From Xestospongia muta (taxonomy: Eukaryota; Porifera; Demospongiae; Haplosclerida; Petrosiidae), in contig OY848928.1 of the NCBI GenBank assembly GCA_963693285.1, positions 1,612,501 to 1,676,500 of the forward strand: a stretch of 64,000 nucleotides of DNA. The letters are read 5' to 3'. Below are positions 7,780 to 58,036 of this stretch, one piece after another. The notes under the pieces were generated by a model. It ran no database searches, had not been told where the DNA came from, and saw only the letters and a list, made by a program, of their open reading frames with translations. The position numbers and the translations under genes were made by a program. Within the stretch, counting starts at the first letter, position 1. The number at the start of each line of letters is the position of its first letter.

Positions 7780-8550
7780 TATATATATTTAATTATGTTA
7801 TCATTATTAATCATTGTTTTCTCTCTTTTATCTACTATGATCATATAATTATGACTTCCTACACTGTTTTCTAATTACTCAGCCAGTAAGTATGAAGACA
7901 CATATGTATTTTGTATTGTGAATCTGTTATTCTCTTATCTACTATGATCATATCATGATGACACATTATTATATATTCTACATTTTAGATAGTACGTATG
8001 AATACTCATTAGTATTATGTATTGGTAAAATTGTGTATTAATCATTGTCTTTCTCTTTTTTATCTATTGTGATCATATTATGATGATAACACTTTTTTAG
8101 AAAGTAAGTATGAAATGCATTAGTATTTGTATTATTAAAAATATGCATCTATTATTAATCATTATTTTTCTCACTTATATCTACTATGATTATACTATGA
8201 TGACATCCTACTCTACATCCCACTTATTCAGCCTGTAAGTATGAACATACATTAGTGTTATTTATTGTTTAATTATGAACCCCAATATCAATCATTTTTC
8301 TCATTTTTATCTACTATACAACCACATTATTATGACATCCTACTCTACATACCACTTGTTAGAAAGTAAACATGAACACACATTAGTATTATGTATTATT
8401 TAATTGTGCATTTATTATTAATCATTGTTTTTCTTTCTTTTATCTACTATGATCTTATTGTTACCACTTCCTACACTGTGTCCTAATTATTCAGTCTGTA
8501 AGTATTAACACACATTAGTATTATGTATTGTTTAATTATAAATGATTATT
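7780..8550 (+). repeat. Microexon-like tandem repeat array 2 (fused to copy 2)
   Basis: Six units of the same repeat as array 1. The 3-nt segments are CCA, ATA (donor GTACGT), AAA, CCT, AAA (donor GTAAAC) and TCT. After the sixth unit the sequence runs directly into the middle of a Roc-COR exon at about 8563, with no 25-nt exon and no P-loop half. The junction lies in AT-rich text (ATGATTATTGATTGATTATC). Confidence 0.85.
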
Positions 8551-8562
8551 GATTGATTATCA

Positions 8563-13381: not shown

Positions 13382-13408
13382 ATGGCTCAAAATCAAGATC
13401 AAGCCTCT
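13382..13408 (+). CDS. First coding exon of gene 3 (MAQNQDQAS)
   Basis: ATG followed by eight codons and a perfect GTAAGT donor at 13409. The exon is 27 nt, so it ends in phase 0. The matching exon of gene 5 at 34755-34790 (MAQKQDQDPNSL, donor GTGAGT) and the conserved upstream flank support it as a real start exon. The next exon with clear homology is 16783-16807, which also begins in phase 0. Array 3 lies between them. Confidence 0.65.
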
Positions 13409-19100: not shown

Positions 19101-22100
19101 AACAGTGATGAGTATCGCAACGTTTTAGATGAAGAAGGCCTCTGGTTTCCAGACAAGACCACTGCATTGAAGGTGATTACTATTTACACACATATAAGTA
19201 AATAATATTGTTATGATTATAGAAAGCCATGTTGCTGGAAAAAGAGATGCTAGATATTAGTAAAAAGATTCCAAATCAAGAGAAATTATATGAACTTGCT
19301 GCACATTTGGAAATGACACAAACTTTTAACGTCATTCTTCAAGATCCTTCTAAGAAGAAACGAGCTGGCTTTGAACTATTGTATGAGTGGGTAAATAATA
19401 AAGGAGGTGTACGTGATGAATTGGTAGAAGTTCTACAAAAAATAGATCTACCTCAACTTGCTGAAATGTAAGATATTTTGTTATCTTGCATCTTCTTGCA
19501 AACAATAATGTTATATTTTTAGGGTGGAGGTAGCTGAATATGATTATGGTAAATTAAAAAGCAAACAAAAGTCAAAATGGGTAAGTATTTAATGTTATAG
19601 TGAACTATGCTTTTATAGTATTTATATTTTATAGAGTGAAAAGACATCATCAACAAATCTTGTCAACATAATAACACAACCAGCCAAGTCAAAGTCCTCA
19701 CAAAAAGAGGTTCAATTAGATCAACAGTAAGAAAATGTATAATAATAATTTTAAGTGCATCTCTGTGTGTATCAGGATAAGTATACAAAATGCTGGAAGT
19801 CTACCTAATGAATCAGTAAACAACACAGAAAGTCAGGTTAGAATTAGTAAAGAAGCATCATGTGATTACAGTAACATTTATATATTAAAACAGGCTTCAA
19901 CATCTGTTGCCAGATTCCAGCCAAAGTTATCACAAACTCCACACATAATCACTCCGTTGATGGCAGCAGTGAGTGACCTAACTAAGGAAACTGATTTAAG
20001 TAAGACGACTGTGTATTATTGCTATTTCTTTTTAATTCACAAAAACTACCTGCGGCTCTGATAAAACTTTTTCAACAAAATTGTCTATTTGTATGCTTTG
20101 TATTCATTAATTTTTGTATATTATTATGATCACTTAGCTATAGTAATAACAGATCTTATGATAATAAATCATAATGTCATTGAACAAGTTTATAGAAAGT
20201 AATATGATAACATTTTTGATCATTATTTCATAGGCTCACAGCAAACAAATAAGATGAAAGTTGTGTCTACCAATGTCACTAAGATACCAAATAACAGTGA
20301 GTAACTGTCTTTTATATGTTTATAAAACTTCATTAGTTTGTTATTAAAGTGTGATTCAATACTATATAGTAATTGTTTTTTATATTTTTCTATATAGCAA
20401 TATATTTAATTGTTTTTATAGAAACTACACAGCAGACTCTAGAAGCAGAGAGAAAAATAAGCAAAATGAAAACAGTTGAAATAGAGAAACTGAAAGGTAT
20501 AGAAGTTTTTTAACATATATATGAAGCAATTCATGTATGACAACCTTTTGGTTTATAGATACTGAGAAAGAGTTACGTTCTATATTAAGAGAAAAAGATC
20601 AAGAGATAGAGATGCTAAAGGAAAGAGTGGGTATGTGCCAGTTTATTATAAATAATCACTCACTCAGTAATACAGTACACATACATGTGATTAATTTTTA
20701 ATTACAGAGACAAAATAAACTTCTTATTATTTGTTTTTTATCAGGCCTGATTATATATGCCATCATAATTAATTACTTTCTTATATATTTTTTGGATAGA
20801 ATCATTTCAAGTTGCAAGAAAAAGTGTGAGCATACAAACAGAATCAATTGATCTGTCAGTACATAAACAGGATGTTTCTGTGCAATTTAATTATCTCATC
20901 CCATCAAATGGTACTGCTATTTTATAGCTAATCCTCTTTGAATTGAATCCTCTTTATAGATACTCTCAAGGGTGTGTGTATTGGAGAAGAGAAGATGTTC
21001 CTTATTCAAGGAGACTCTATTCAGTTCTTCAACTGGGAAAAATATGGATTGAGAATTACTGTTCCTGAAGGGACTTTGTCTCCAACAGACACCAGTGAAG
21101 TTGTTGTGAGAGCTCTTGTTGGTGGACAGTTTCAATTACCTGAAAACACAGAATTAATTAGTGCTGTCTATGCGATATCTCTCTCTAAACCACTACTCAA
21201 GCCAGTTAAATTAGAGATACAACACTGTGCAGACCTAGTCACTCAAGATCATACCAGTTATTTGAGTTTTGCTACAGCTTCTGTTAATACTAGACTCCCT
21301 TATCAGTTCCAGTTTGAAGAAGGAGGACAATTTCACCCTGGTGATCACTATGGCAGCATCTGTCTTTCACATTTCTCTTTTAAGGCTATTATCAAATTTA
21401 TCAAGAAATTGCTGGGATATCCTTCAAGCAGTGGATCATCTTCTGATGATGAATCACTCTATGTAGATGCTCCTGAACCACCTACTCAAGATCATGGGAG
21501 TAGAGTTAGTCTAGGAAAAGGTATGCTAAATACAAAAAATGCTGTTTCACATATTTTCTCATAGTAAACAATACACCAGTAATGAGTTCTGATATCAGAG
21601 CCACAGACAGAACAAAATCATTGACATCCTCTTCATCAACTGATGATAAGCTCAACTCTGTAGACACATCTACATTTAGTTTAGACCATAGTCCACAACT
21701 TCCTAACTCATCAACTCTACCAAGTGAACAGTCACAGATAAAAAGTAAACAACCTGTTTAATAATGTTGATGCAAATATTCCTCTGCAGATGTGTCTGTT
21801 GTTAACAAACCATTTCCTGATAACAAGTATGTAGCTCAGACAGTATATGAGGTTAAATGTCATGGTACTAAATGGTTAATGCATTTCATGGTTGCTAAAC
21901 ACCTCAATGCTTTACTAGAAGTAAGTAAACCACTAATAGAGTTGTGTAATATAATATAATATATGTATAGTATATGAAGAAGTCTCTTCCTTCTGATGTT
22001 GACAAAGATATTTGCTTATCCTTCACATTTGAAGATGATGGCTACATTGAATTAAATCTGAAAGGAGAGCAAGAGCGTCCTATTAATGGATGGAATATTG

Positions 22101-33038: not shown

Positions 33039-34754
33039 ACTAGCCACAGCATTTATGTAATTGTGAACACTAGTAGTATTTAGCATTCAGTTTATATCAC
33101 AGTAATAGCACTTTTTAAACATTATGTGGTAATTGGTAATAGCAGGAATCTGTTAGATTTTGCCTTGAAGTGAGTCACATGACTGTAGGAACAAACAAAG
33201 CACAAGTCCATAATAGCAATGGCACATGCCCAGTTATAATTTGTAGATATAATAGAATGGGTGTAATTAGGGATAAATTACAGGAATGTCTCTTAAATTA
33301 TTAAATTTCATGAGGCTAAGCTATTCACTTTAAGAAAGTGTAAATTATCCTGAATTTATTTGAATGTATTCTGTTACAAATTTATGATATACTTTGACAA
33401 ACTGTTGATTTAAGAGCAGACAGCTTGACCACAAAGGGGAGACCATATTCACTATCGAACTATTCTTATGTTTAACTTTACACCCACCATGTAATCTCAT
33501 GAGAATGCTATTTCTTCACTAAAGTGTTGAAACAAGAATATAATTAAACAATATTATAATTGAACAAATCATCCTATGATGGTTTAGGAAGATACTAAAC
33601 TAACTTCACACTGAAACATTGACTAGAACTACAATGATTGCATAATTAGCATCAGTGTCTGTTGAATACTATAACTATAGAATGCTAGAAATATAAGTAT
33701 AGAAACAAGTTAATGAGACTGTTTGAGCATTGGTAGTTATACTGATTGTCACAACACTTGTAGTTAGTGTTAATTAACTTCATTGGCTGCTATATGTGTC
33801 ACCATTAATGGATGTGGTTTATTTTCTTTTGTTGCTCTTTAAAGTCATACACAGCAATATATTAAAAATGTAAAGGTGGATGTATATACATAGCAAATGG
33901 TCTGAAACATTTGTAGGAAATTTATTTAACAGTTGATTAAAACAATATAAAGACAAGAGGCTAGTTATGATATATTTTTCTCATATTTGATAGTTTTCAT
34001 AATAGTAAAGAAACTTAACTGTTACAAATGCTTTGGAAATACTAATCATATTTTAATAACATTATAACAACTATACAATACTTATAGTAAGTATTAAAAT
34101 TAACTTTGTAGCAAGCAATATATAGCAATAAAGTTAATGTAGACAATCAATCTGTAAAGTCAAAACAAAGATAATACAATCAGTGTAAATGTATCACAGT
34201 AAAACTATTGAAACAATTCTTGTTTTATGACCAATAACTCAGAATTAAAAGAAAAATAGTAGCTAGCCATTTTAGGAAAGTATACAAAACAGTGTAATTT
34301 AAAGAAAATTAGATATCTACTTTGTAAATTATTTTTTAGACACAAAACTATTGATTTCTACATTATGACATATCTCCTCATGATACTAAAGTTATTATAG
34401 ACAAAACTTTTGAAACCAATGTAATGTAATGATTGTCTGTATACTAATACAATAACAAAATGTATATAAGATGATAGCTCACAAAATGTATGATATAGAA
34501 GTCATTTTTATTGGATTAATATAGAACCATTCGTACATTATGTCTATTTTAGATTAATTTTTCTAAATGAATGCAGACATGACCAGGAGCAAATAATTGC
34601 AAAAAAACATTCTTGTAATCTTTCATATTCTATGTATCTATATATGGCATTACTGTTCTTTGACTAGTCTCTAGTCTTTGCTCCATAAATTTCCTCTATT
34701 ATTATAACATCTGTTATTATAACCTTTATTATTATACAGAATTAGAGTGTAGTT
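33039..34754. other. Intergenic region upstream of gene 5
   Basis: 33855-34190 repeats 23552-23890. 34640-34754 matches 13260-13381 and should hold the promoter and leader of gene 5. The remainder has no recognisable gene. Confidence 0.5.
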
Positions 34755-34790
34755 ATGGCTCAAAAACAAGATCAAGACCCTAACTCTCTT
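34755..34790 (+). CDS. First coding exon of gene 5 (MAQKQDQDPNSL)
   Basis: ATG plus eleven codons and a GTGAGT donor at 34791, in a context homologous to the gene 3 first exon at 13382. It ends in phase 0. The next recognisable non-repeat exon is 43561-43585, so intron 1 would be about 8.8 kb and hold array 4 and a transposon. Confidence 0.6.
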
Positions 34791-37700
34791 GTGAGTCTTT
34801 CTTTAAAGTTATTATCACAAATCACAAATATTTATAAAAAGTTGTATACTCTATTTATGTTCATAATAAACACTAACTCAGTATTATAACTCTGGCTAGG
34901 AATGAACTAGAAATAAATGGTTTACACCATTTGTAATGCCTTGTAAATCTGCAAATTATTAATAAAAATCAGAGTGTTAAAAGTTGCAAACCAAAAGTTC
35001 CATATAAAGTGAATGGGATTCTTTGCACATGACTGACATCACACATAGTTTCATATTATTAACAAATGGCTGTACAAGAATTCTTTAGCTTTAGCAGAAA
35101 AGTTCAGAAACTATTGAATAAAGCTTTAACAATAAAAGTAGGTTAGATCAAGAAGAGACAGCTGCAAGGAACCATGAAAGCTTCAGTATGACTTGCAAAA
35201 AAATTGCAAATATGATGCCACATCTAAGTCTGGTTTATGATGTTGCTTTAATTGAAATTCCACTAAACTATAGTCATTCTCAGAGTATAGACAAAATGTA
35301 GCAATATGGAAAATTAATTCACAAAGCAATATATTAATAATAATTGAAATATAACTACTCTAGTACAATAAAACAATCCAAACATTATATTCATCCATCA
35401 AAATTCACCGTGTTTGTAAATTAAACTTAACCAATTAAATTGCTTCATTGAAGATTAATGCATCAAGACACCTGTTTTGACATGTTTTACTGATTTAATT
35501 GCACTCTATAAAAATGCGTGTTTCTAGTCAATGATCTTTAATGTGTTTTTAGAACAGATATCTGACAATACATTGTTATTACTAGTTTTATTATACAATG
35601 AAATTAGAAACAAAATATACAAAAGAGGTTCTTTATTATGATAGTTGTTACAAGGCAATTACAATTCAAGAATTAACATGTTGAAGTCTTTTGTCTGTGT
35701 GTCAGTCATTTCATTCAAGTCAGCCATAAAGATATTTGACCTACTTGATGAGGTGCAAAATATATGGCTCTTATCCACTGAAAATAACACAAAGATAACA
35801 TGAAGAAAGACTACTATATATATAGATACTATAGAAGTATACAATGATATAGCCCTCTGGCAATATCTTTTACAATGTCCCTTATTGGCAAAGTTGATAA
35901 AATGTATATAGATAACTAATTAATGATGTCATATATTATATATAATTTATAACTCATTATGTACTACTTAATTTGTACACCTATACATCACAAATATATA
36001 TGCTGTTCTGTTTTTCTCTTTCTCTTATTCTTGTCAGGTATTTATGATTTGTTTATTCATTATTAACTTCGCTGTGCTTGGGCACACAGCGAGGCACTGT
36101 AGTCTATCAGTGTCTGTGTCTGTTACCCGGGCAAATGGCTTTGAACTGCTTTAACTTGGCAAACATGGCACTGGTAGCCACCAAACTATAGTGGACGGTA
36201 GCAAAACGTCTGTACTTCTTAAGAATACTGCTAAAAGGAGAAGGAGTGTCAAATGAACAAAAAACTTTAAAAGTCTGAAAACCTTTGGAAAAAGTACAGC
36301 TTTCAATGAAGACTCGAGAATTCAATAAAAACTTCATACAGCTTATGACATTTTCCAACTTTTTAAAGTGAGAATTTTTGCAAAAATACTTCTTTGGAAA
36401 GTTATGACAGTTTTACTAACTTTTGGCAGTTATCTTTTCGATACATTGAGCATGGACTAAAATACTAGCACCATAGCTGTCATTGGAGAATCACTAACTT
36501 TTACTAAGAAGTTGGAAGTGTTGGACTTTTTTGTCAATTAGAATGCAAAGTACCCAGTAGACACGCTAATCAACAAAACTTTTTTCCCTTTGATTGAAGA
36601 GAAATGCTGAGTCATAAATAATCATCTTGCGCATCACATGAAATATCTCTTGCCTATATTTTGTGGTATACGTCTCTTGAGAAGGCTAAAAGAATAAAGA
36701 AATTTGCTTGGTAGTGCCTTATGGTCAATTAGTTTGCAAATTGGCCAGTAAGTTGACAATTGTCAGAGTAAAGCTGAGCCATTAATAATTTACCATACCT
36801 TTAAGCTTGTGGAATGTTAAATGTACAACCACTCTGCACTCTGCAGTCTAGATCTACACTGCCCACCACAGCGAAGTTAAGCACTTTAGTGCATTTCATT
36901 AATCATTGTTTTTCTCTCTTTTATCTACTATGATCATATTATGATGATATCCTACACTGTATCCCTCTTATTTAGGATGTAAGTATGAACACACATTAGT
37001 ACTATGTGTAGTTTAATCGTGTATTTATTATTAATCATTATTTTTCTCTCTTTTATCTATCTGCTATGATCATATTATAACAATTTCCACTGATTCCACT
37101 TATTTAGGATGTAAGTATAAACACACATTAGTATTATGTATTGTTCCATTGTGTGTTCATTATTAATCATTGCTTTTCCTCTTTTATCAACTACGATCAT
37201 ATTATCATAACATCCGACACTGAATCTCTCTTATTCAGTCTGTAAGTATTATTAACACACACTAGTATTATGTATTGTTTAATTGTGTATTCATTATTAA
37301 TGATTGTTTTTCTCTCTTTTATCTACTATTATCATACTATAACAATTTATACTATATTCCACTTATTCAGGATGTAAGTATGAACACATGCTAGTATTAT
37401 GTATTGTTTAATTGTGTATTCATTATTAACGATTGTTTTCTCTCTTTTATCTACTATGATTATATTATGATGAATTCCTATACTGTATTCTACATTTAAG
37501 GAAGTAAGTAAGAACACATGTTAGTATTATGTATTGATTAATTGTGTATTCATTATTAATTATTGTTTCTCTCTTGTTTATGTACTATGATCATATTATG
37601 CTGATATTCTATACTGTATCCTTTTTATTTAGTATGTAAGTATAAACACACATTAGTTTTATGTATTGTTTAATTGTGTATTCATTATTAATCATTGTTT

Positions 37701-40700
37701 ATATCTCTTTTATCTACTATGATTATATTATGATGAATTCCTATACTGTATTCTACATTTAAGGAAGTAAGTAAGAACACATGTTAGTATTATGTATTGA
37801 TTAATTGTGTATTCATTATTAATTATTGTTTCTCTCTTGTTTATGTACTATGATCATATTATGCTGATATTCTATACTGTATCCTTTTTATTTAGTATGT
37901 AAGTATAAACACACATTAGTTTTATGTATTGTTTAATTGTGTATTCATTATTAATCATTGTTTATATCTCTTTTATCTACTATGATGATGTTATGGTGAC
38001 ATCCTACACTGTATGTCTCTTTTATTTAGTGTGTAAGTATAAACACACACATTAGTATTATGTATTTTTTAATTTTATATTCATTATAAATCATTGTTTT
38101 ACTCTCTTGTTTCTACTATGATAATATTATGATGACATCCTACTTGCATCCTTTTTAATCAGACTGTAAGTATTAAAACACATTAGTAAAATGTATTTTT
38201 TAATTTTATATTCATTATTAATCATTGCTTTTTTCTCTTTTATCTATTACAATCATATAATGATAACATCCTACACTGTATCCTTCTTATTCAGCCTGTA
38301 AGTATTAACACACATTGGTATTATGTATTGTTTAATTGTGTTTTCATTATTTATCATTGTTTTTCTCTCTTTTATCAACTATGATCATATAATGATAACA
38401 TCGTACACTGTATCCCAATTTTTTAGATTGTAAGTATTAACACACATTAGCATTATGTATTGTTTAATTATGTATTCATTATTAATCATTGTTTCTCTCT
38501 CGTTTATGTACTATGATCATATTATGATGATTTCCTATACTGTATTCTTCTTATTCAGCTTGTAAGTATAAACACACATTAGTATTATGCATTGTTTAAT
38601 TTTGTATTCATTATTTATCATTGTTTTTCTCTTTTTTATCAACTATGATCATATAATGATAACATCGTACACTGTATCCCAATTTTTTAGATTGTAAGTA
38701 TTAACACACATTAGCATTATGTATTGTTTAATTATGTATTCATTATTAATCATTGTTTCTCTCTCGTTTATGTACTATGATCCTATTATGATGATTTCCT
38801 ATACTGTATTCTTCTTATTCAGCTTGTAAGTATAAACACACATTAGTATTATGCATTGTTTAATTGTGTATTCATTATTTATCATTGTTTTTCTCTCTTT
38901 TATCAACTATGATCATATAATGATAACATCGTACACTGTATCCCAATTTTTTAGATTGTTTAATTATTTATTCATTATTAATCATTGTTTCTCTCTCGTT
39001 TATGTACAATGATCATATTATGATAACATCCTACACTGTATCCTTTTAATTCAGCCTGTAAGTATGAACACACATTAGTATTACGTATTGTTTAATTGTG
39101 TGTTCATTATTAATCATTGTTTTTCTCTCTTTTATGTATATGATCATATTATGATCACAACCTATTCTGTGACCTTATTCAGTCTGTAAGTATTAAAACA
39201 CATTAGTATTTTGTATTGTTTAATTGTGTATTCATTATTAATCATTGCTTTTCTCTTTTATCTATAACAATCATATTATGATAACATCCTACACTGTATC
39301 CTTCTGATTCAGCCTGTAAGCATTATCACACATTAGTATTATATATTGTTTAATTGTGTATTCATTTTTTATCATTGTTTTTTCTCTTTTATCTACTACG
39401 ATCATATTTATGATGACATCCTACACTATATCCCACTGTTTAGGTTGTAAGTATTAACACACATTAGTATTATGCATTGTTTAATTGTGTATTCATTATT
39501 TATCATTGTTTTTCTCTCTTTTATCAACTATGATCATATAATGATAACATTGTACACTGTATCCCAATTTTTTAGATTGTTTAATTATTTATTCATTACT
39601 AATCATTGTTTCTCTGTCGTTTATGTACAATGATCATATTATGATAACATCCTACACTGTATCCTTTAAATTCAGGCTGTAAGTATTAACACACATTAGT
39701 ATTACGTATTGTTTAATTGTGTGTTCATTATTAATCATTATTTTTCTCTCTTTTATGTATATGATCATATTATGATCACAACCTATACTGTGACCTTATT
39801 CAGTCTGTAAGTATTAAAACACATTAGTATTTTGTATTGTTTAATTGTGTATTCATTATTAATCATTGCTTTTCTCTCTTTTATCTATAACAATCATATT
39901 ATGATAACATCCTACACTGTATCCTTCTTATTCAGCCTGTAAGTATTAACACACATTAGTATTATGTATTGTTTAATTGTGTTTTCATTATTTATCATTG
40001 TTTTTCTCTCTTTTATCTACTACAATCATATTTATGATGACATCCTACACTATATCCCACTGTTTAGGTTGTAAGTATTAACACACATTAGTATTATGCA
40101 TTGTTTAATTGTGTTTTCATTATTTATCATTGTTTTTCTCTCTTTTATCAACTATGATCATATAATGATAACATCGTACACTATATCCCACTTTTTTAGG
40201 CTGTAAGTATTAACACACATTAGCATTATGTATTGTTTAATTATGTATTCATTATTAATCATTGTTTCTCTCTCGTTTATGTACAATGATCATATTATGA
40301 TGATTTCCTTTACTGCATTCTTCTTATTCAGCTTGTAAGTATAAACACACATTAGTATTATGCATTGTTTAATTGTGTATTCATTATTTATCATTGTTTT
40401 TCTCTCTTTTATCAACTATGATCATATAATGATAACATCGTACACTGTATCCTTCTTATTCAGCCTGTAAGTATTAACACACATTAGTATTATGTATTGT
40501 TTAATTGTGTTTTCATTATTTATCATTGTTTTTCTCTCTTTTATCAACTATTATCATATTATGATAACATCCTACACTGTATCCTTCTTATTCAGCCTGT
40601 AAGTATTAACGCACATTAGTATTATGTATTGTTTAATTGTGTTTTCATTATTTATCATTGTTTTTCTCTCTTTTATCAACTATGATCATATTATGATAAC

Positions 40701-43700
40701 ATCGTACACTGTATCCTTCTTATTCAGCCTATAAGTATTAACACAAATTAGTATTATGTATTGTTTAATTGTGTTTTCATTATTTATCATTGTTTTTCTC
40801 TCTTTTATCTACTATGATGATGTTATGGTGACATCCTACACTGTGTCTCTTTTATTTAGTGTGTAAGTATAAACACACACATTAGTATTATGTATTGTTT
40901 AATTGTGTATTCATTATTTATCATTGTTTTTTTCTCTTTTATCAACTATGATCATATAATGATAACATCGTACACTGTATCCCAATTTTTTAGATTGTAA
41001 GTATTAACGCACATTAGCATTATGTATTGTTTAATTATGTATTCATTATTAATCATTGTTTTTCTCTCTTTTATCAACTATGATCATATAATGATAACAT
41101 CCTACACTATATCCTTTTTATTCAGCCTGTAAGTATTAACACACACTAGTATTTTGTATTGTTTAATTGTGTATTTATTATTAATCATTGTTTATCTCTC
41201 TTTTATCTACTATGATGATGTTATGGTGACATCCTACACTGTGTCTCTTTTATTTAGTGTGTAAGTATAAACACACACATTAGTATTATGTATTTTTTAA
41301 TTTTATATTCATTATTAATCATTGCTTTTTTCTCTTTTATCTATTACAATCATATAATGATAACATCCTACACTGTATCCTTCTTATTCAGCCTGTAAGC
41401 ATTATCACACATTAGTATTATGTATTGTTTAATTGTGTATTCATTATTAATCATTGTTTTTCTCTCTTTTATCAACTATGATCATATAATGATAACATCG
41501 TACACTATATCCCACTTTTTTAGGCTGTAAGTATTAACACACATTAGCATTATGTATTGTTTAATTATGTATTCATTATTAATCATTGTTTCTCTCTCGT
41601 TTATGTACAATGATCATATTATGATGATTTCCTTTACTGCATTCTTCTTATTCAGCTTGTAAGTATAAACACACATTAGTATTATGCATTGTTTAATTGT
41701 GTATTCATTATTTATCATTGTTTTTCTCTCTTTTATCAACTATGATCATATAATGATAACATCGTACACTGTATCCTTCTTATTCAGCCTGTAAGTATTA
41801 ACACACATTAGTATTATGTATTGTTTAATTGTGTATTCATTATTTATCATTGTTTTTCTCTCTTTTATCAACTATGATCATATATTGATAACATCGTACA
41901 CTATATCCCACTTTTTTAGATTGTAATTATTATCACACATTAGTATTATGTATTTTCTAATTGTGTATTCATTATTAATCATTGTTTTTCTTTCTTTTAC
42001 CTACTATGATCATATTTATGATGACATCCTACACTATATCCCACTGTTTAGGTTGTAAGTATAAACACACATTAGTATTATGCATTGTTTAATTGTGTAT
42101 TCATTATTTATCATTGTTTTTCTCTCTTTTATCAACTATGATCATATAATGATAACATCGTATACTGTATCTCAATTTTTTAGATTGTAAGTATTAACAC
42201 ACATTAGTATTATGTATTGTTTAATTATGTATTCATTATTAATCATTGTTTCTCTCTCGTTTATGTACTATGATCATATTATGATAACATCCTACACTGT
42301 ATCCTCATTCAGCCTGTAAGTATTAACACACATTAGTATTATGTATTGTTTAATTGTGTGTTCATTATTAATCATTGTTTTTCTCTCTTTTATGTATATG
42401 ATTATAACATGATCACAACCTATACTGTGACCTTATTCAGTCTGTAAGTATTAAAACACATTAGTATTTTGTATTGTTTAATTGTGTATTCATTATTAAT
42501 AATTGCTTTTCTCTCTTTTATCTATAACAATCATATTATGATAACATTTTACACTGTATCCTTCTTATTTAGCCTGTAAGTATTAACACACATTAGTATT
42601 ATGTATTGTTTAATTATGTATTCATTATTAATCATTGTTTCTCTCTCGTTTATATACTATGATCATATTATGATGACTTCCTATACTGTATCCTTCTTAT
42701 TTAGGATGTAAGTATGAACACACATTAGTATTATGCATTGTTTAATTGTGTATTCATTATTTATCATTGTTTTTCTCTCTTTTATGTACTATGATCATAT
42801 TATGATAACATCCTACACTGTATCCTCATTCAGCCTGTAAGTATTAACACACATTAGTATTATGTATTGTTTAATTGTGTGTTCATTATTAATCATTGTT
42901 TTTCTCTCTTTTATGTATATGATTATAACATGATCACAACCTATACTGTGACCTTATTCAGTCTGTAAGTATTAAAACACATTAGTATTTTGTATTGTTT
43001 AATTGTGTATTCATTATTAATAATTGCTTTTCTCTCTTTTATCTATAACAATCATATTATGATAACATTTTACACTGTATCCTTCTTATTTAGCCTGTAA
43101 GTATTAACACACATTAGTATTATGTATTGTTTAATTATGTATTCATTATTAATCATTGTTTCTCTCTCGTTTATATACTATGATCATATTATGATGACTT
43201 CCTATACTGTATCCTCCTTATTCAGCCTGTAAGTATTAACACACATTAGTACTATGTATTGTTTAATTGTGTATTTATTATTAATCATTGTTTTTCTCTC
43301 TTATTAACTACTACAATTATAGTATGATGCTTCCTACACTGTAGGAATCTGTACCTTGTGTTATTTGATATTAAGAATTTAAAATGAACTTTACATATTG
43401 CAATTCTAGGTTTCTAATTTGAATACTCATAGTGAAAAACTCAACATCAGATCGTTTAAACAATTCAAGACAATCATAGTTATGGATTTCATTATAATTA
43501 TAAATTATATTAACTTTTAATGTGTTTTAATAATTCCTGTCTCTTGTTTTTATTTTATAGGCTATAAATGTCAGTGTTGTGGAAGGTAAGATTATTTATT
43601 AACTTTTTAGTAGTTATTCATTAAAAATGGCAGTCTGTACAGACAGTACAAGGAGAGAGAAAGTTCGAAGAAGAAATTAGCATTACCACAGTTGATCTCC

Positions 43701-46430
43701 TTCTCAACTGGTTGTCTAATATTCATATTCGTCTTGCAAAGTACGATGAAAAGGGAGCACTCTTAAATTATCCTCGTGTACTATGCATTGGTACACATGG
43801 TGACAAGCTCAAGGAAAAGGGCCAAACATATGACCAAAAGATACAAGAAATTGAGTCATATTGCAAAGGAAAACCATTTGAAGTCCTTATTAATGGTTTT
43901 CACATTGTTGATAATACCACTGCTGGGAGTGGTGAAGGTGAAGATATCAATTTCTCTAAAGTGCGAAGTGCAATACGTGATTTCACCTACAACAAGCTTA
44001 TTGTCAAAACACCAATTAGCTGGGTACTCTTTCGTAAAGTTATTCAAGCTCTCAAAGCAAATGTTATTAGTCTTGAAGAAGCTCATGCCATTGGTATTGC
44101 ATGTAAAATACCGAGTGATGTTGTTCCCAAAGTACTCTTTTTTTACCATGACTTAGGTGTGCTTTTGTTCTACCCTCATATTTCTGGTCTAGAAAATGTA
44201 GTCATTCTCAGTCCAAAATGGTTTGTTGATGTCCTTGGTAGGGTGTTAACACTAAAAGGAAGAGAAAACCATCAAACTCGGCTTATGTGGGACTTATTAC
44301 GTGAGAAGGGAATACTTGTTCAACCTCTCTATGTAGCTGCTTGGAGAGAAGTTGAAGGTCTTGATCCAAAGTCATTGATTAATTTATTGGTTTGCTTTCG
44401 CCTTGCTGCTGAAGTGAAGACAGATCAATTTTATGATCTCAGTGTAAAACAATACTTCTTACCTTTAGTATTGCCTTTAGCTAAGAAAGCATCGGTTTCA
44501 CCAGGATACATTGAAAGAGCTACTCCTTTGCATCTCACATTTAGAACTGAGTTTGTCCCACCAGGTTTTTTTATTCGTTTTATTACAGCAATTGCAGAAT
44601 CACCGTTATGTGAGATCAGCTTTGATAAAGGAGTATATCGCAATCGAATAAATATTGAATTTGGAGACCCAACAATTGATGAAGTAATTTTAAGTGAGCT
44701 ACCTCATGCTATTCAAGTTGATGTCCGTCGATATGCACCTGAAAGTGATGGTCTTGACAAATTTACTAATGTCTGCCAAAAATTGTGTAATTTAGTTAAA
44801 GAAGTAGCTAAAGAAGTTGACAAATGTCTATTTGCCTGTGATGATGTTGCTGGCAATGATGAGTCTGGTAAAGTATTCAAAGAAGTTCGATTTGTATGTG
44901 CTGCACCAGAGTGTCAGTCTACTTCAGGTTGTCATTATTTAAAGCACAAGAAAGGTCAGACTTGTGATCTATATCTACGTTGTAAAAACAGTGATGAGCA
45001 TCGCAAAGTTTTACCTGAAGAAGCCCTCTGGTTTCCTGACAAGAGCACTGTGTTGAATGTAAGTATTAGTATTATTTGTATATACATAAGCATTAAATAT
45101 TTTCATGATTACAGAAAGCAACCACATTGTATCAAAAGGAGCTGCTAGATATTAGCAAAAAGATTTCAAACCAAGAGAAATTATATGAGCTTGCTGCATG
45201 TTTGGAAATGACACAGAATTTTAATGTCATTCTTCAAGATCCTTCTAAGCAGAAACGAGCTGGCTTTGAACTATTGTATGAGTGGGTAAATAATAAAGGA
45301 GGTATACGTGATGAAATGGTAGAAGTTTTACAAGAAATAGATCTACCACAACTTGCTGAAATGTAAGATATTTTATTATGAGAAACAATATTAATGTCTT
45401 TTAAATCAAATTAAGGGTGAAGGAAAGTGAGTATGATCCTGAAAAGTTAGGCAATAAGAAGAGTCAAAAAAAGGTTAGTAGTAAGATAATTCAGTTTGCT
45501 TTACATAACAGTTATTATACAGGATCACCGAAGACCGCTGGTAAATCCAATTAATATACGACCTACAAGTTTTCAATTTGCCAGCTATGATTTTGCTATC
45601 CCTCAGTCTCCTGAATCAATAATCACACCTACAACTTTGATATCTGATATTGATCTTATGCGATGCACTTGTCATATTCATGGCAATGTATCCCTTCTCG
45701 CTGGTTATCTTGGTATCAAATCTGCAACTTTAAAGGAGATTGAGCGTGACTACAGAGAAGTAGAGACACAAGCATATTGGGTACTGAAAAAATGGCAAGA
45801 AAATACCACAAGCAATGGTCATCAAACTAATCTTCATGACATGCTGCAAGTATTAGGATTTCACAAAGCTGCTGAAAGGTACTTTGCTTATTGACAAGAC
45901 ATATAATATGTTATTGTTTTTTATTAGTTTGATAAAACCAGAGCTGCCACTATCAAGTGAAAGTCTGCCACAAAATGAAACTCCACCATCAAGTGAAAGC
46001 CTACCACCAAGTGATATTCCATTGGCAAATACAATTAGTATGCTTCCTGCCAGTTTTGATTCTGGTACCCCTCAATCTCCACCTACAACTACTTTAATAC
46101 GTAATGTTGATCTTTTACGATGTACTCGTCATATTCATGGAAATATATCCATCCTTGCTGGTTCTCTTGGTATTGCTTCTGCAAATTTACAAGAAATTAA
46201 GTGTGAGTATGAAGAAGTAGAGACACAAGCTTATTGGGTACTGAAGAAATGGCAAAAAACCACAAGCAATGCTCATCGAGATGATCTTCATGATGTCCTG
46301 CAAACTTTAGGATTTCACAAAGCCGCTGAAAGGTATCTTTGCTTATTGTATGTATGATATATAATTGTTTTTTATTAGTTTGATAGACCCTGAACTATCA
46401 CCATCAAATGAAAGTCCACCATCAAGTTAA
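34755..46430 (+). CDS. Roc-COR-Death gene with deleted P-loop half (gene 5, possibly a pseudogene)
   Basis: Exons: 34755-34790, [array 4 microexons], 43561-43585 (AINVSVVE), then Roc-COR sequence from about 43628 to 45058, 45115-45362, 45416-45473, 45523-45878, 45928-46332, 46379-46430. The intron after 43585 runs straight into the middle of the large exon at [11 protein letters not shown]. The acceptor, P-loop and switch II are missing. If the AG at 43609-43610 is used, translation meets TAA at 43622. From 43628 the frame is open for about 475 codons with THGD, the COR-like region and Cys motif. Three Death-like domains follow, one more than gene 1. The tail stops at TAA 46428-46430; a CaaX-like sequence lies just beyond with one base missing, so the prenylation site is lost. 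Confidence 0.65.
36067..36876. mobile_element. TTAA-flanked inverted-repeat element next to array 4
   Basis: The left end CTTCGCTGTG follows TTAA at 36063-36066. The right end CACAGCGAAG precedes TTAA at 36877-36880. Length is about 810 bp. A TTAA target duplication is typical of piggyBac-type elements. No transposase is recognisable; the longest open frame (83 aa, - strand) has no known domain. It is probably non-autonomous. It abuts the first unit of array 4. Confidence 0.7.
36890..43345 (+). repeat. Microexon-like tandem repeat array 4 (about 49 units, intron 1 of gene 5)
   Basis: Period about 131 bp. Unit layout: 3 nt, GTAAGTATTAACACACATTA, an AT-rich stretch (GTATTGTTTAATTGTG, TTATTAATCATTG), TTTTTCTCTCTTTTATC, TATGATCATAT, TACACTGTATCC, TTCTTATTCAG. 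The 3-nt segments are GAT, GAT, TCT, GAT, GAA, TAT, GAA, TAT, TGT, ACT, CCT, ATT, CTT, ATT, CTT and so on, then mostly CCT, TCT, GTT, GCT, CTT, ATT, TGT. By eye 45 of 49 keep AG-NNN-GTAAG. Two have lost the donor by deletion (near 38955, 39575), one has ATAAGT (near 40732) and one GTAATT (near 41925). No stop triplet occurs. Every intact segment is exactly 3 nt. Confidence 0.9.
42280..43230 (+). repeat. Higher-order repeat of four units within array 4
   Basis: A block of four units (CCT, TCT, CCT, then GAT or CCT) beginning near 42280 is repeated almost letter for letter about 525 bp later from near 42805, including the unusual TATGATTATAACATGATC and CTATACTGTGACCTTATTC. A two-unit block near 37460-37700 is likewise repeated at about 37735-37975. 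This indicates recent homogenisation by unequal exchange. Confidence 0.8.
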
Positions 46431-48840: not shown

Positions 48841-49204
48841 TTTCAATAAGGTTTTAATATTGAACCTCCCTATGATCTACTTGCACATCTGGATAATGCA
48901 AAGTAGAATTAAATACTTTTGGAAAACTCCAAAGCTGAATATATGAAATTCGAAGTAGAATTGGATGTCCACCTTCGGCTTCCGTAGAATTTTCATTTAG
49001 CAACCAAATTTTCTGGTAATTCAAATTTGTTGCTTGGATTTTGAGATTCGAATTATGTGGACTACACTGTACATAAGATTAACGCTCAACACTATATAGT
49101 CTAGCGTAACCAAACCCCCTCATGCAGAGGGAGGGTCTAGCTACGTGAACATTCAACCCTCCAGACCATTATATTCTAATTATCCAATTTTCGGTAATGA
49201 AATA

Positions 49205-52200
49205 ATGAAGATCTTCATTAGCTACAATAGTTCAATTGAGCAAGTCAGTAAGTTTGCTAAAGACCTGAAGACAAAACTTCTTCAAGATGATGGTATTGAT
49301 CAAGCCTTTATTTTTCAAGATGTAGACGACAATCCTATTGGTCATGTATGGTCTGAAAATCTTGGGAAGGCAATAAGTGATTGTGATGTCTTTATTGCTA
49401 TTATCACACAACAGTATCTTGATTCCGACATATGCCATAGAGAGATTTCTTATGCTCGTGACACATGTAGACCTAGAAAACCAGTCTTTCCAATTATCTT
49501 TAAAGATCACCAACTTAATTATAAAGAGGGGGAATATGCTCGTTCTATACACATGATAGTCCAACAAGTAAATTATATAACCTTTAAAACTACAAGTGTG
49601 GAGTGTCCACAATATGGTGATCTTCTAAGGTCAATTAAACAAAAAGCTCTTGGTAAGTGTCTACTAGTAATAACTAACATTGTAATTATTATTTGTAGGA
49701 GGTCAAGGTGGTAACAATGAAACTGACAATGGATCTGTGCCAAGTAAGTGTGTAATGACTATATTATTTCACAAAAGCTCATGTGGCCTCATTATGTAAA
49801 GATAAGCAATTAGTAGGTATACATCGCAAAAAGTCGTATGTCCTTTTAACATATCAATTTGTTATTTCAGATTCAAGTCACTCATTAGTAGTGATGAATA
49901 AGATTGTTTATAGCACTGTACAATTAAGTATCCATAATATGGATTTTAATTAAATGCAATTCCATATGGCTATATAGTTAATGTATGCTAGTACATGAAG
50001 TGTATAAGTATTACATCTGATGATATTTCTTAGTAAGTACTTACTTAGATATAGTTAGTATTAGTATTTCCCAAGTCTGTACATACATATCTCCAAAACT
50101 TAGTAAATGTTCTCAATAACCTGCTAATATATAGTACTATGTGCATAGTCATACTCATTTATGAAACTCATATAACAAATTCATATGTTAAGTGACATAT
50201 TACTTGTAGCAGTGTAGACAAGTAAATTCAATTGAAACTGATACAATACTCATATTATGATCATAATATTCTAAACTTGGTTGCCTTTTGGCAGTGATTC
50301 TGACATGTTTTTTTTCATTTATAATCATAATTTGTTGCATGATGAATAGGATTGTGTAGGATAAAGACTCTTACCAACGAAAAGTTGGAAACAACATCCG
50401 TTCTTTGTTTAAAAAGGAAATGTTGCTTTGTTGACAGTGATTCCCACCCCCTAACCTAAAAATATTATATATCTATAATTAGAACTGCTAATAATATAGT
50501 ACATAATGTATCTAACAATAAAATATTTTAAAATTAAATATATGATATTATATTATTACAATTTCATTTTGCAGACAATCAATCCACCTGCTCCTATATT
50601 AAATGGGCCATCATAATTTTAGGGATTTCAATAGCTATTGGTGTTATAATGCTATTGATAAATCAAAGTAAACTAAAAAAATATGTATACTGTATTGTTT
50701 AAAAATTATCTTAAAGTTATTTTGAAGTGAATTAGAGACACGGAGAGTTCTAGAAACTCAGTTAATGGAATTTTTTGTTTCCTTGAGCACCAATAAGTAA
50801 CAACAGACCTAGTGGCCATTGTTAACACACTCAGCTTTGATTTTATTCATTCCATTTGATAACTGAGAATGTAAATTAAAATGAGTCATCATTGAGCATA
50901 CACTCATGTCACATTGTCCAATTAATCATATAGACATAACTGGCACACAAATCATATAGCTCCAAAATACATGAACTATTTTGTTTCATCTTAGGACCTC
51001 CTCACAATGAATCATCTGTTACTGTGACTATACCATCATCACATAGCAGTTCTTTGTTAAATTCAACAATTATTATCACTTCACCTCATGTTCCTCTGTC
51101 ACAAACGACATCAAAACCATGCAGTGAGTATAGTAAATTTTAAGTACTGTAATTACCTTAAGAAATGACTATTACACTGGTAACAACCAGGAGACTTTAT
51201 TAATATATTGCCTACAGTTCAACTAGAAGATGCAATACAATTAATACAACATGCCTTGCAAAATGACTACAAAAACAATCTTTCTCTTAAGTCAGATTCT
51301 TTCAGTAGCCTGTCAACTAAACAGCCATATCAAAAACAATATTTCTTTTATTACTATATCATTTACGGCTATTGTCATAGATGGTACAGTAAAAGGAAGG
51401 CATTGGATATACAGAATCTGGTGATATCAAGTAACAGCATTTTGCAATGTACTATGAGATGAACTATTTATGAATTATATGCTATAGCTAGCCAATAAAA
51501 GATCTCTGCTTGAATTCCAGAAATAAACTTTAATTAAACAGAGCCAGAAGCAAAATAGCAAAAAAAACCCTTCAAAATGACACCTATCATAGTTCCTCCC
51601 ATTGGTTGCCATGTGCCTCAGCAGTTAAAGTACATGTAATTCAATTTCATCCATCACTTTCGATTGTTGCATACAACAATATAATAAAATTAAAAAGAAA
51701 AAGAAACTAAAGGACATACAATCATAGATACCATGTTGTCAAAGCAATTATAGGACTGTATTGTACTCAGAACATGCCAGGTAGTAAAAATAATTGAGGT
51801 GCTAAGAGAAGATTGAATGTTTTTGTTAATGTAATTACTGGTCACAAATACCATTTTTTCTAGTGATATTTGTTTCCAACTCTTTCATTTATTCATTTAC
51901 CTAATGCTATTACTATATGAAGCCATACACAGAAAAACATTTTGGTTGTGGGGTCTGAGAAGCATTACTAAATGTGACATAGATAGATAGATAGATAGAT
52001 AGTTATTTTTCCTCTGCAACCATAACAATGATTAAAACTTACAATTAGTAGTAGTTTGACACATAATTAACCATTCAAGTTACCAGTAGTTATATATATT
52101 CTCTTGAATTATAGACTCACATCCTAAATCTTCTCGTGAACTTGCCATTGCTCTAAAGGACCTTGTTCAGTGGGAGATCTTTGGTATTTATATTGGTATT

Positions 52201-52386: not shown

Positions 52387-53623
52387 AATGTAATAATTTT
52401 TTATATATGAACTGAAAAGATTATGATGTATTTTTTGTGACATTGATTAATGTTTTGTAATATAATAGTTTATAATAGTTTTCTTCTTTTTTCCAACATT
52501 CCTTGTTCGTGTATGAAGCTATATTTTTGCTAGTCTTCCCTAATGGCCTCACATGTAGTGACTTGCATCCATTTATAGTTTTAATTTATGCTTTAATAGC
52601 CATATTTTATAGTAAAGTACCAAAACAACACCAAAATAGTGAGAGTGTGTTATGCACTTGTAATAACAGTTATGATTACAAAACCACTGAAGCATATTTA
52701 TTATTATATGTACTATGTCAGGTACAGGCTACAATGATATGTTGATGTATCATATCTGCTTCATTGTCAGTTAACTATATTGGTCATATATTCACTCGAG
52801 TATGCTCTTAATGACAACAATCTCACATGCTACTCTCAAGGATGTCTGCTAACATAGAGCAATGGAGTAATATATGACGTGTGTGTGGTTTTACAAAATT
52901 GACTCTTACAAACTACTTGTTCTACTATAAATGAATATATAGCTTTTGTCAATTTGGCCAGTTTTTTGACAGAAAGAATGTGGTCTCCACATGACTGAAT
53001 TCGAATAGTGAGGAGCTAATGAGCTCCTGCTCATTGTAAATCTATCATGCTTTCTGCAATTGCATGTGAAAATAATAAATCCAAAAAATGAAATCATTGC
53101 AAATATGACAAAATGTTCTTTTAATATAGCATATAACTATATAGCAACTTTCACATTGTGAGAGTGGATCTTTCATAAATTAGTTATATTGAGACCAGCA
53201 ACTTTCTAACTTTATGTGCAAAACTGCTGTTGTTTCGACATAGACAGTAATTGCTACTGATTTCTACTTAGTTATCATATTTTTGAATTCATTCTCTTTC
53301 CTGTAGCAACTAAATACTTTTCTCTTGAACAATATATATAACTGAGACAATTAATATGGAACTATCATTAATTTTTATTAATCAAATTAGCAGTCAATTT
53401 GTATGATGATATAAACATGTTAAAACTATTTATTGTTTAGAATAATAAGTTAATTGTTACATCTGTATCAGTTTTGTAAAATGATTAACTCTTACGTCTA
53501 AGGTCAATCAATCGCGAGTACGTCGTGCTTTAAATAAGAATAAGGTTAAAATTAGCGAAGGGGCTGTCCTTGAATAATTGTCTCTCAAATTATATCAAAC
53601 TTTAGCAGCAGTTTTGTTTTATA
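52387..53623. other. Intergenic region between genes 6 and 7
   Basis: No gene recognised. About 52800-53470 is homologous to the block upstream of gene 6 and probably carries the promoter of gene 7. Confidence 0.5.
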
Positions 53624-54556
53624 ATGAAGATCTTCATTAGCTACAATAGTTCAGATGAGCAAGTCAACAAGTTTGCTAAAGATCTGAAGACAAAACTTCA
53701 AGATGACGGTATTGACCATGCCTTTAATTTTCAAGATGAAAGAGACAATCCTATTGGTCGTATATGGACTGAAAATCTTGCCAGCACAATACATGGTTGT
53801 GATATCTTTATTGCTATTATCACACAACAGTATCTCAATTCTGACATATGTCATAGAGAGATTTCTTATGCTCGTGATACATGTAGAAAACCAGTTTTTC
53901 CAATTATCTTTAAAGATCGCAAGCCTAATTATGAAGTGGGTCGATATGCTCGTTCTATACACATGATAGTTCAACAAGTAAATTATATAACCTTTGAAAC
54001 TACAAGTGTGGACTGTCCACAATATGGTGACCTCCTAAGGTCACTCAAGTCTGGTAAGTCGTTTATAGAAGGCATAGAGTGCCAGTAATAGAACACTGTA
54101 CATTAATGTGAATTAAATACTATACCTTAGACCCTAAACTTTAAACAATAGATTCTAAATGTACTAATTTTTCATTAAAGTATGGTGTTCCATTACCAGG
54201 ACTCTACGTACTTTCTTTTAAGTAATGTCTAAGAGTATAGCTCAATGAATTTAATGAAAACAGATCATATAATCTGTTTTTAATTTCACATACAGGCCAG
54301 GAAGTACATATTATATTGGAATGTCATATTATATATACAGTGTAAATATACAGTCAGCAAGTTGTGATTAATGTACATACTCATATTTATTATCATCTCA
54401 TGAATATTGTTTGTAGACAATCCCTCATCCTCTAACATTGGAAGAGCTAAGTTAATAATAATTGCTCTAATTGTAGCAATTATTGCTGTTGTTGTTGCTT
54501 ATTTATGGCAAAATCAAGGTAAACAGAACTAATATATATATTATATATATATATAA

Positions 54557-56389: not shown

Positions 56390-57480
56390 ATTATTTAGTA
56401 ACTTCTTTAAGTCAATTTAATTTTAATTTAAGGCAGTACTTCAATGATTCATATTCTAAAGTTGAAGTGGTACTATATACACATAATGTGTACATGGCCT
56501 CATGCACTGGTACTACATATAAGATATGTAGTACATGTTAATATCTTAATTGGGACACCTGCTTACTCTATGAATTTTGGCTATCCAAACTGAAGGTGGT
56601 CCTAGATTGTAATCTAATAATTTGAGGTGGTACTAGACAAATGCCATCAGTCATAGAGGTGGTTCTATCATTCATGATTTATTGAATATTCGTTTGAACA
56701 ATAGTCCATTCAGCTCTCACAATAAATATCTTCATCAGTTACAGTGAAATTGAAGAAGTCAATCGGTTTGTTGCAGAGCTAAAAGAGAAACTTGAGGAAG
56801 TGCTTGAAGTTGAGCGAGTCTTTAATTTTCAATGTCCTACAGACAATCCTGCTGGGACTGATTGGACCAAAAACATTGCTAGAAAAATAAATGACTGTGA
56901 TGCTTTCTTTGCTGTTATAACACAGTACAACTAACAATTTTTGTTAATTAATTAGTAACTTCTTTAAGTCAATTTAATTTTAATTTTAAGGCAGTACTTC
57001 AATGAATTGTATTCCAAAGTTGAAGTGGTACTATATACACATGTGTTCATGACCTCCACTGGTACTACATATATGATATGTAGTACATGTTAATATCTTA
57101 ATCGGGACACCTGCTTATTCTATAAATTTTGGCTTTGCAAACTGAAGGTGGTCCTAGATTGTAATCTAATAATCTGAGGTTGTTCTAGAGAAACCCCATC
57201 AGTCATAGAGGTGGTTTTATCATTCACCATTTATTGAATATTAGTTTGAACAATAGTCCATTCAGCTCTCATCATGAAGATCTTCATCAGCTATAACAGT
57301 GCAATTAAAGAAGTCAATCAGTTTGTTGCAGTGCTAAAAGAGAAACTCGAGGAACAGATTGTAGTTGAGCAAGTCTTTATATTTCAATGTCCAAAAGAAA
57401 ATCCTGCTGGTGCTGTATGGACTGAAAATCTTGCCAAAAAAATAAAGGATTGTGACGCCTTTATTGCTGTTATAACCCAG
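56390..57480 (+). repeat. Tandem duplication of about 545 bp containing a TIR 5' part
   Basis: The stretch beginning near 56370 (ACAATTTTTGTTAATTA) and running into a TIR exon is repeated from about 56930. Shared marks are GGCAGTACTTCAATGA, GTGGTACTATATACACA and GAATATTxGTTTGAACAATA. The first copy ends inside its TIR sequence at 56934, where the second copy begins. Confidence 0.8.
56722..56934 (+). pseudogene. Truncated TIR exon (start codon lost)
   Basis: It aligns with the first 70 codons of gene 8. The start codon is ATA instead of ATG. The frame is open through FISYSEIEEVNRFVAEL and DCDAFFAVITQ, then ends after YN at a TAA formed by the duplication junction. Probably non-functional. Confidence 0.8.
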
Positions 57481-58036
57481 CAGTATCTTGATTCTAAAAT
57501 ATGCCACCAAGAAATTACTTTTGCAGATAAGAAAGAAAAGGATATCATCCCAATCACCTTTAAAGACCACGAACTGAATTATGAGGAAAGTAGCTATGGT
57601 GCATCTATAGAAGTGATAGTTACAACAGTTAATTACATATGCTTTGAAACTACAACAGTGGAAGATTCTGAATATAGGAGACTCATTCAAGGACTTAGGA
57701 AAGTATATGCCAGTAAGTCACTCAAATAGCATAATTGTTAATCAGTACAATTTGTTGTTACTCCTAGGAGCTCAACCTAGAGATAGCAGTGGATCAGCAT
57801 CAGGTATATAATTGTACATGTCATCACTTAATGTCATTTAATTACAACTGATGATAGGACCTGCAGCTAAAAAAAGCAAAATATCTGCATCAGGTATTTA
57901 ATTTTTGTCTTTATGTTTTTTAAATTAAGTACTTGTAGGAACTACAGCTCCAAGTAAGGACAAAGAATCAACATCTCTACCAGGTATACTAAATAGGTTA
58001 TAATCCTAATACAGTTATAAATCACTTTATTTACTG

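Follow-up and report, generated by a model that had tools for sequence, protein, structure and literature searches.

Within a 64-kb stretch of the genome of the sponge Xestospongia muta (assembly GCA_963693285.1, contig OY848928.1, here C12), a tandem array of 49 units alternates short, intron-like segments with three nucleotides set between an acceptor and a donor. Its host is a ROCO (Roc-COR) gene, gene D, one member of a tandem row of ROCO paralogs on C12, and the array occupies the first intron downstream of the start codon. Judging from the sequences of these paralogs and of their relatives on other chromosomes, we are fairly confident that the array strings together true spliceosomal exons of one codon each, which would probably be spliced stepwise into an N-terminal linker of the protein. 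The stretch analysed, C12:1612501-1676500 of a 158-Mb genome, is hereafter called the window, and coordinates without a prefix refer to it.

Tandem Repeats Finder (TRF), run on the window, places the array at 36898-43343 with 48.5 copies, and 49 units can be counted there. This confirms the first-pass annotation of the same DNA, which had described about 49 tandem units over 6.4 kb. Its unit length of 131 bp needs correction, since the commonest spacing between units is 132 bp (27 of 45) and the TRF period is also 132. An acceptor, three bases and GTAAGT had been ascribed to each unit. The pattern AG-NNN-GTAAGT holds in 43 of the 49 units, and YAG-NNN-GTAAGT in 41 (the acceptor is TTTAAG at 37501 and 37764); it fails in six units, whose donors are altered (GTAAGC at 39313 and 41392, ATAAGT at 40728, GTAATT at 41920) or deleted (38953 and 39574). 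YAG-NNN-GTAAGT occurs 65 times in the window, always on the + strand, while shuffles lead one to expect 1.32 (largest 5); a chance origin of the motif array is hence rejected. The parts of gene D are as follows.

34740-34790, + strand: exon 1, with an acceptor (..tacag) ending at 34739, a start codon at 34755 and 12 codons encoding MAQKQDQDPNSL; it ends in phase 0 and is followed by gtgagt
36898-43343, + strand: array of 49 units of about 132 bp, each an intron and a putative 3-nt exon
Triplets before a GT donor in the array (n=45; the GTAATT unit at 41920 fell outside the search pattern): DDSDEYEYCTPILILPSPVASPVALPPCIPCPALPVIPSPDPSPP
43561-43585, + strand: exon 2, 25 nt, entered in phase 0 and left in phase 1
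43625-45058, + strand: truncated Roc-COR exon, an open frame with COR-A present and a donor GTAAGT at 45059

The flanking exons that had been proposed for the array, 34755-34790 and 43561-43585, are well placed, and both are in phase 0 towards it. Three further arrays of the same kind lie in the window (~146-1700, 7880-8510 and 13990-15950), each before a paralogous gene.

The length of the putative exons is fixed throughout the C12 cluster, which was analysed as 251.5 kb of joined sequence. The cluster contains nine uninterrupted Roc-COR exons (C12:1521259, 1544724, 1559392, 1578814, 1589645, 1598433, 1615007, 1629612 and 1703126) as well as several broken ones, and array sites are found in 13 gene regions, four of which, gene D included, are in the window. 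On the gene strand YAG-NNN-GTAAGT occurs 208 times, compared with 0 on the opposite strand; for each other spacer from 0 to 12 the two strands have 1-7 and 0-5 sites, respectively. The acceptor and donor consensus expected of a spliceosomal microexon is thus present at 208 sites on C12, and at 23 and 13 sites in related arrays on contigs C10 and C11. A whole-unit model finds 258 copies in the cluster and 0 on the opposite strand. To lessen the choice of sites by their core, flank models were trained on the units from this model. Among 242 left-flank matches, 204 are followed by YAG, 3 nt and GT[AG]AG, 0 by these signals at any other length, and 38 by neither. Pairing both flanks yields 177 units, 151 of them strict; of the other 26, 21 differ in the acceptor or donor but retain AG plus 3 nt, and in 5 the acceptor is lost or unreadable. 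Three exons, related to one another, clearly depart from this length at 9 nt.

An acceptor and a donor so close together resemble the ratchet points of recursive splicing, and the first-pass annotation had suggested a ratchet for removing a long intron. The inserted codons would in that case be a harmless by-product or would be skipped. Stepwise removal is mechanically likely here, and recursive sites have been described in long introns of flies (PMC8605326). As far as the accessible text of that paper describes them, however, ratchet points juxtapose acceptor and donor and lie mostly in long introns, whereas here a gap of 3 nt intervenes. A zero-nt recursive site was also considered and rejected, spacer 0 giving 1 site on the gene strand versus 208 at spacer 3. 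Most of the intron consists of the array, to which it mainly owes its length, and genes with just 3-10 strict units exist; a function solely in intron removal is therefore unlikely. Compared with the donors of exons 1 and 2 (such as gtgagt, gtaaga and gtaggg), array donors also come nearer to GTAAGT, as would suit decoy sites that sequester splicing factors or slow the splicing of intron 1, so lowering expression, with none of the triplets included in the mRNA. Decoys would nevertheless leave the exact 3-nt spacer, the frame and the fast codon positions unexplained, and we consider them very improbable.

The interpretation as one-codon exons draws further support from the way in which the units have changed. 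Over the 258 copies, AG is conserved at 100 and 99%, GTAAGT at 95-100%, and the triplet at 46, 37 and 58%. Rates of change were obtained from a tree of 224 units, built without the core and exon columns, with changes corrected for base composition. AG and GTAAGT together change at 0.18 of expectation, which points to selection on the splice signals; the two letters of AG change at 0 and 0.03 of expectation, and donor positions +1 to +6 at 0.07-0.45. Past the donor, conservation persists at +7 (0.36), is weak at +8 (0.78) and has ended at +9 (1.83), which is close to the limit of pairing with the 5' end of U1, expected at +8. Changes at the triplet positions, by comparison, amount to 2.53, 3.05 and 2.47 times expectation. 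No intron column among the 125 compared reaches these values (median 0.96, maximum 1.89); with C and T both permitted, the Y of YAG (2.13) was kept out of that set. Donors have a nearly perfect intron side, whereas at -1, on the exon side, T predominates against the consensus. That the two sides of a donor can compensate for each other is described in PMC10599564. In a recent duplication (C12:1554900-1559391 versus 1574300-1578813), 0 of 160 core letters have changed, compared with 4 of 60 triplet letters, all of them amino-acid changing, and 162 of 4254 letters in the rest.

The reading frame is kept with the neighbouring exons. First exons of the type ATGGC[TC]CA precede six of the C12 arrays, and their coding lengths up to the first GT donor (36, 36, 18, 21, 27 and 36 nt) are all multiples of 3; the second 36-nt exon uses the donor GTTAGT, and a seventh match, with an in-frame stop and no donor, was left out. 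Exon 1 thus ends in phase 0 in six cluster genes, and it does so in the C10 gene. A motif for exon 2 found it as 25 nt in 4 of the 9 intact C12 genes and missed the other five, and two broken genes have exons 2 of 25 and 26 nt; wherever found, exon 2 is entered in phase 0. When the C12 triplets and 9-nt exons are strung together per gene in the frame of exon 1, there are 0 stops in 219 codons, versus 3/206 and 16/206 in the shifted frames. With 0/27 on C10 and 0/15 on C11 (the latter counted without three TAA rows overlapping the donor GTAAGTAAGA and one row inside the Roc exon), 261 codons contain 0 stops; taken by itself this count is no more than suggestive. By the tree, the triplets should have undergone 7.4 stop-creating changes; none of the 224 units has a stop, and a single one is inferred, at an inner node. 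All 106 three-column windows together have 209 stops observed versus 220 expected. The slow splice letters, the fast exon letters, the fixed spacer and the kept frame in the paralogs all support the ladder of one-codon microexons that had first been proposed for gene D alone.

ROCO relatives on other chromosomes have the same design. A ROCO gene on the minus strand of C10 (76% identity) has an array of 3-nt exons in the same intron, and another on the minus strand of C11 (78% identity) has 13 strict sites, with 0 at other spacers of 0-15 on that strand. The predicted orders of their parts are given below.

C10, minus strand, read from sequence: a 15-nt coding exon 1, 27 exons of 3 nt, a 39-nt exon, a 25-nt exon and the Roc exon, with consistent phases
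C11, minus strand, read by eye: the array, followed in phase by exon 2 (31 nt) and the Roc exon

Of the 27 units on C10, 23 are strict, and among the other spacers of 0-15 only 11, 12 and 14 have a match, one apiece. The C10 introns barely align to the unit model (41 bits or less). They do retain the donor, the acceptor and a branch-like motif, GATAA, at -18 to -50 in 11 of 27 (0.4 in shuffles). One C10 intron also holds a 25-bp satellite, GTAAACAAACAGTAGTATTATATAG, whose joints read AG|GTAAAC in a zero-nt layout (L049 reverse complement, ~8290-8770). Inverted repeat ends, GGATAATATATTGTACACACAACTCCATA, lie in the C11 array (L107 reverse complement, ~420-560), with a related piece in L108, and suggest a small transposon inside that array. 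On C4 there are two related pieces of two units each, the core being intact in one of the two units; one piece, a broken copy, has a 35-nt first exon that is out of frame, and the other has a ROCO piece with a stop 3.4 kb downstream.

Genome-wide searches for three such motifs in a row gave, for a 3-nt spacer, 276 forward and 692 reverse matches (backwards control 62 + 66). Because of satellites these totals are unfit as evidence, and only the places of the matches are useful. Extending the donor to GTAAGTA gives 119 matches (control 110). The best 100 of the 119 fall in the C12 cluster (73) and on C11 (20), C2 (1), C5 (4) and C6 (2); among those listed, the C11 matches lie 1.5-13.6 kb upstream of the C11 ROCO gene and the C6 matches are a 45-bp repeat. 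With shorter gaps, 24 matches are found (control 153), of which three lie 0.7-1 kb upstream of the ROCO gene C1:24901737 and one lies 4.8 kb upstream of the ROCO gene C1:24682267, all on the same strand as the gene, one falls within the C10 array and the other 19 lie in other places. In Genome Taxonomy Database (GTDB) contigs, 54 stretches had one match each and no array. A separate observation concerns C1:7153164-7264965, minus strand, where GTAAGTG-type units lie ~135 bp apart in sub-blocks tens of kb apart; this region holds all of the first 100 of the 968 three-in-row matches with a 3-nt spacer. Either a satellite or a further gene family with arrays of one-codon exons may account for it. 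No COR-A place lies within it among the 150 listed, and the nearest listed NACHT place is 43 kb away, with no tie to the array.

A number of observations weigh against one-codon exons and in part favour an intronic satellite, which would carry splice-like motifs by descent and never be used as exons. Tandem arrays expand by themselves, and repeats with AG-4-GTAAGT on C13 (both strands) and C15, with a spacing of ~139 bp, and on C9 show that such motifs can ride on satellites. The motif alone therefore proves little, and the evidence lies in the pattern of change, the frame and the place. In several searches for three motifs in a row, the backwards controls come close to or outnumber the forward matches: a 4-nt spacer gives 39 + 40 matches (backwards control 234 + 647), a 3-nt spacer with shorter gaps 14 + 10 (65 + 88), and GTAAGTA 92 + 27 (53 + 57). 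The gene D array itself sits in a truncated gene, whose Roc-COR exon is without approximately its first 203 residues, P-loop included, by reference to the gene C exon. Splice dinucleotides are as well preserved in units of broken genes (58 of 62) as in units of intact ones (156 of 162), the counts for the whole AG plus GTAAGT being 51 of 62 and 146 of 162, and the looser branch motif TAAY shows little excess on C10 (16/27 versus 12.8 shuffled). Among homologous proteins (best 120 of 657), none covers the N-terminal linker. Avoidance of stop codons is weakened as sole proof: 2 of the 35 other three-column windows with at least 3 stops expected are likewise free of observed stops, and an earlier version of the test, with 10.7 expected, had a mean of 2.65 stops as inferred intermediate steps. 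The excess of triplet changes in the recent C12 duplication is small. Finally, a case for positive selection from nearest-pair comparison is weakened by a leave-out pairing control, in which exon position 1 ranks first, position 2 ranks fourth (local) or third (global), and intron columns fall between these two fast exon positions.

Nevertheless, slow change in the units is focused on AG and GTAAGTA, and the codon between them is their fastest part. On each of three chromosomes, the arrays occupy intron 1 of ROCO genes, run with the gene strand and are flanked by frame-matched exons, and the C10 array retains little likeness beyond the splice signals. A plain satellite was rejected on the unit conservation pattern, the fixed 3-nt spacer, the tree rates and the C10 array. 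The first-pass suggestion of a satellite that merely spreads with its splice sites is thus disfavoured, despite the AG-4-GTAAGT satellites in the genome, and we give it little credence.

From these patterns we infer exon use, an order of splicing and a possible function of the linker. In the mechanism that we propose for the one-codon exons, each ~130-nt unit would be a complete short intron followed by a 3-nt exon. Exon 1 would join a 3-nt exon, and the joined exon would then present that exon's GTAAGTAT donor, which may pair with U1 mostly via the intron side because the exon side must stay free to vary. The next intron would be removed and the cycle repeated, with one codon gained per step, up to the joining of exon 2. 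The resulting ROCO protein would carry, between the part encoded by exon 1 and the Roc GTPase domain, an N-terminal linker that could reach dozens of residues. An acceptor and a donor 3 bases apart presumably cannot bind both of their complexes simultaneously; removal of one flanking intron would turn the tiny exon into part of a long one, and this step would be repeatable. Steric hindrance has been proposed for larger microexons, whose downstream intron is often removed first (accessible part of PMC10250204), and splicing here could therefore proceed in either direction.

Since every subset of the microexons is in frame, skipping would yield many linkers from one gene, and the anatomy permits the combinatorial one-residue insertions that the first-pass annotation had put forward. 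The arrays may then be a splicing-based generator of diversity, in which each pre-mRNA gives a different in-frame subset of one-codon exons and selection for diversity speeds the codon letters; we put this forward tentatively, and constitutive or merely tolerated inclusion is about as likely as diversity use. A constructive neutral origin shares the anatomy proposed here and denies it a function. The microexons would be real and spliced in but only tolerated, unequal crossing-over would shift whole units and never break the frame, and the linker sequence would be unconstrained. In keeping with this, strict copies range from 3 to 41 per C12 gene, the composition of the linker varies widely between paralogs, there are higher-order repeats within the array, and the recent duplication has only its small triplet excess. 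On the other hand, the triplets exceed the rate predicted from composition by a factor of 2.5-3 and outpace every one of the 125 intron columns, a pattern for which neutral drift fails to account unless the introns are broadly constrained. On balance, a neutral origin is a serious possibility that falls short of an even chance.

The remaining arrays of the window precede genes A, B and C, whose parts are as follows; microexons are putative.

C12:1610628, 1.9 kb upstream of the window: gene A exon 1
146-1702, + strand: gene A array, 10 strict microexons, RRRLSRSQRL
2136-2160, + strand: gene A exon 2, 25 nt, entered in phase 0 and left in phase 1
2508-4564, + strand: gene A Roc-COR exon, no stop inside, open frame of 727 aa, uninterrupted over the compared part
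7880-8503, + strand: gene B array, 4 strict microexons and units with altered donors
From 8557, + strand: gene B Roc-COR exon, broken
13382-13408, + strand: gene C exon 1, 27 nt coding, phase 0
13988-15947, + strand: gene C array, 10 strict 3-nt and two 9-nt microexons and units with altered donors
15301-15309, + strand: 9-nt microexon of gene C between AG and GTAAGT, frame kept, with a related copy at C12:1597045
15545-15553, + strand: second 9-nt microexon of gene C
16783-16807, + strand: gene C exon 2, 25 nt
17113-19172, + strand: gene C Roc-COR exon, entered in phase 1, uninterrupted over the compared part

Pfam-type domain scores are 42.8 bits (Roc) and 50.9 bits (COR-A) for gene A, and 45.8 and 47.4 bits for gene C. 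Both genes thus have Roc followed by COR above the curated cut-offs (27 and 35.3 bits), as befits the ROCO family; the scan of gene D finds COR-A only. The named proteins among the best 120 of 657 homologs are from Amphimedon queenslandica, with a top identity of 49%. Genome-wide, 150 COR-A places are listed, 148 of them above the cut-off, in a very large ROCO expansion with clusters at C5:6.28-6.91 Mb and C1:8.19-9.05 Mb. A Death-domain frame (5150-5647) lies downstream of the gene A ROCO exon, and a ZU5-domain frame (20947-21564; 21.1 bits, cut-off 21) downstream of that of gene C. Similar open frames occur at 49100-49714, a TIR domain by Pfam, and at 53606-54088 and 57250-57729. Two of the paralogs contain 18-bp repeats with the consensus CCACCACCAAGTGAAAGT (5696-5863 and 45942-46021). 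The array-bearing ROCO family is probably one of sponge cell-death or immune genes.

Should the triplets reach the mRNA, these genes would be extreme both in the shortness of their exons and in exon number per coding length, with a linker of up to ~45 residues whose coding sequence is interrupted by as many introns. They would test whether the spliceosome can handle dozens of serial 3-nt exons whose acceptor and donor complexes are unable to sit side by side. They would also be a means of diversifying peptides in a sponge family with domains reminiscent of genes for innate immunity and death signalling. Among the titles and abstract openings listed by literature searches with limited coverage of subscription papers, none described one-codon exons arrayed by the dozen. 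Exons of this length are easily overlooked by ordinary annotation and read aligners, and similar arrays may therefore hide elsewhere.

Among known systems, Drosophila Dscam and other tandem exon arrays are alike in having tandem duplicate exons able to multiply isoforms. The exons of the Dscam array are much longer than one codon. Dscam splicing is mutually exclusive in the accounts available, whereas the sponge exon is a single codon and any number could be joined in frame. If the diversity reading is true, the arrays would be a counterpart of Dscam that works one codon at a time, in the cell-death or immune genes of an early animal. Single 3-nt microexons are reported in Ncam and troponin T (accessible part of PMC8042270); these too are one-codon exons, but as described there they occur singly in animal mRNAs rather than in arrays, and RPS24 is reported to have three neighbouring microexons. 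Recursive ratchet points similarly have a strong donor soon after an acceptor and go with stepwise intron removal; unlike the sponge sites, they have a zero-length or cryptic exon, lie mostly in long introns, and number few per intron in the examples given in the accessible text (PMC8605326). The micro-exon genes (MEGs) of Schistosoma mansoni are alike in layout, being clustered families in which very short exons, mostly multiples of 3, stand in rows. In the accessible part of their description, these exons measure 6-81 bp (3-81 in the abstract), mostly 15 bp, with 10 to 20 per gene and introns of 0.1-5 kb; the central exons are alternatively spliced and the proteins are secreted (PMC10526429). 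The sponge genes share with them the layout only: nearly all array exons are 3 nt rather than mostly 15 bp, the units are tandem copies of each other, and the host is a Roc-COR gene, for which a signal peptide was not searched.

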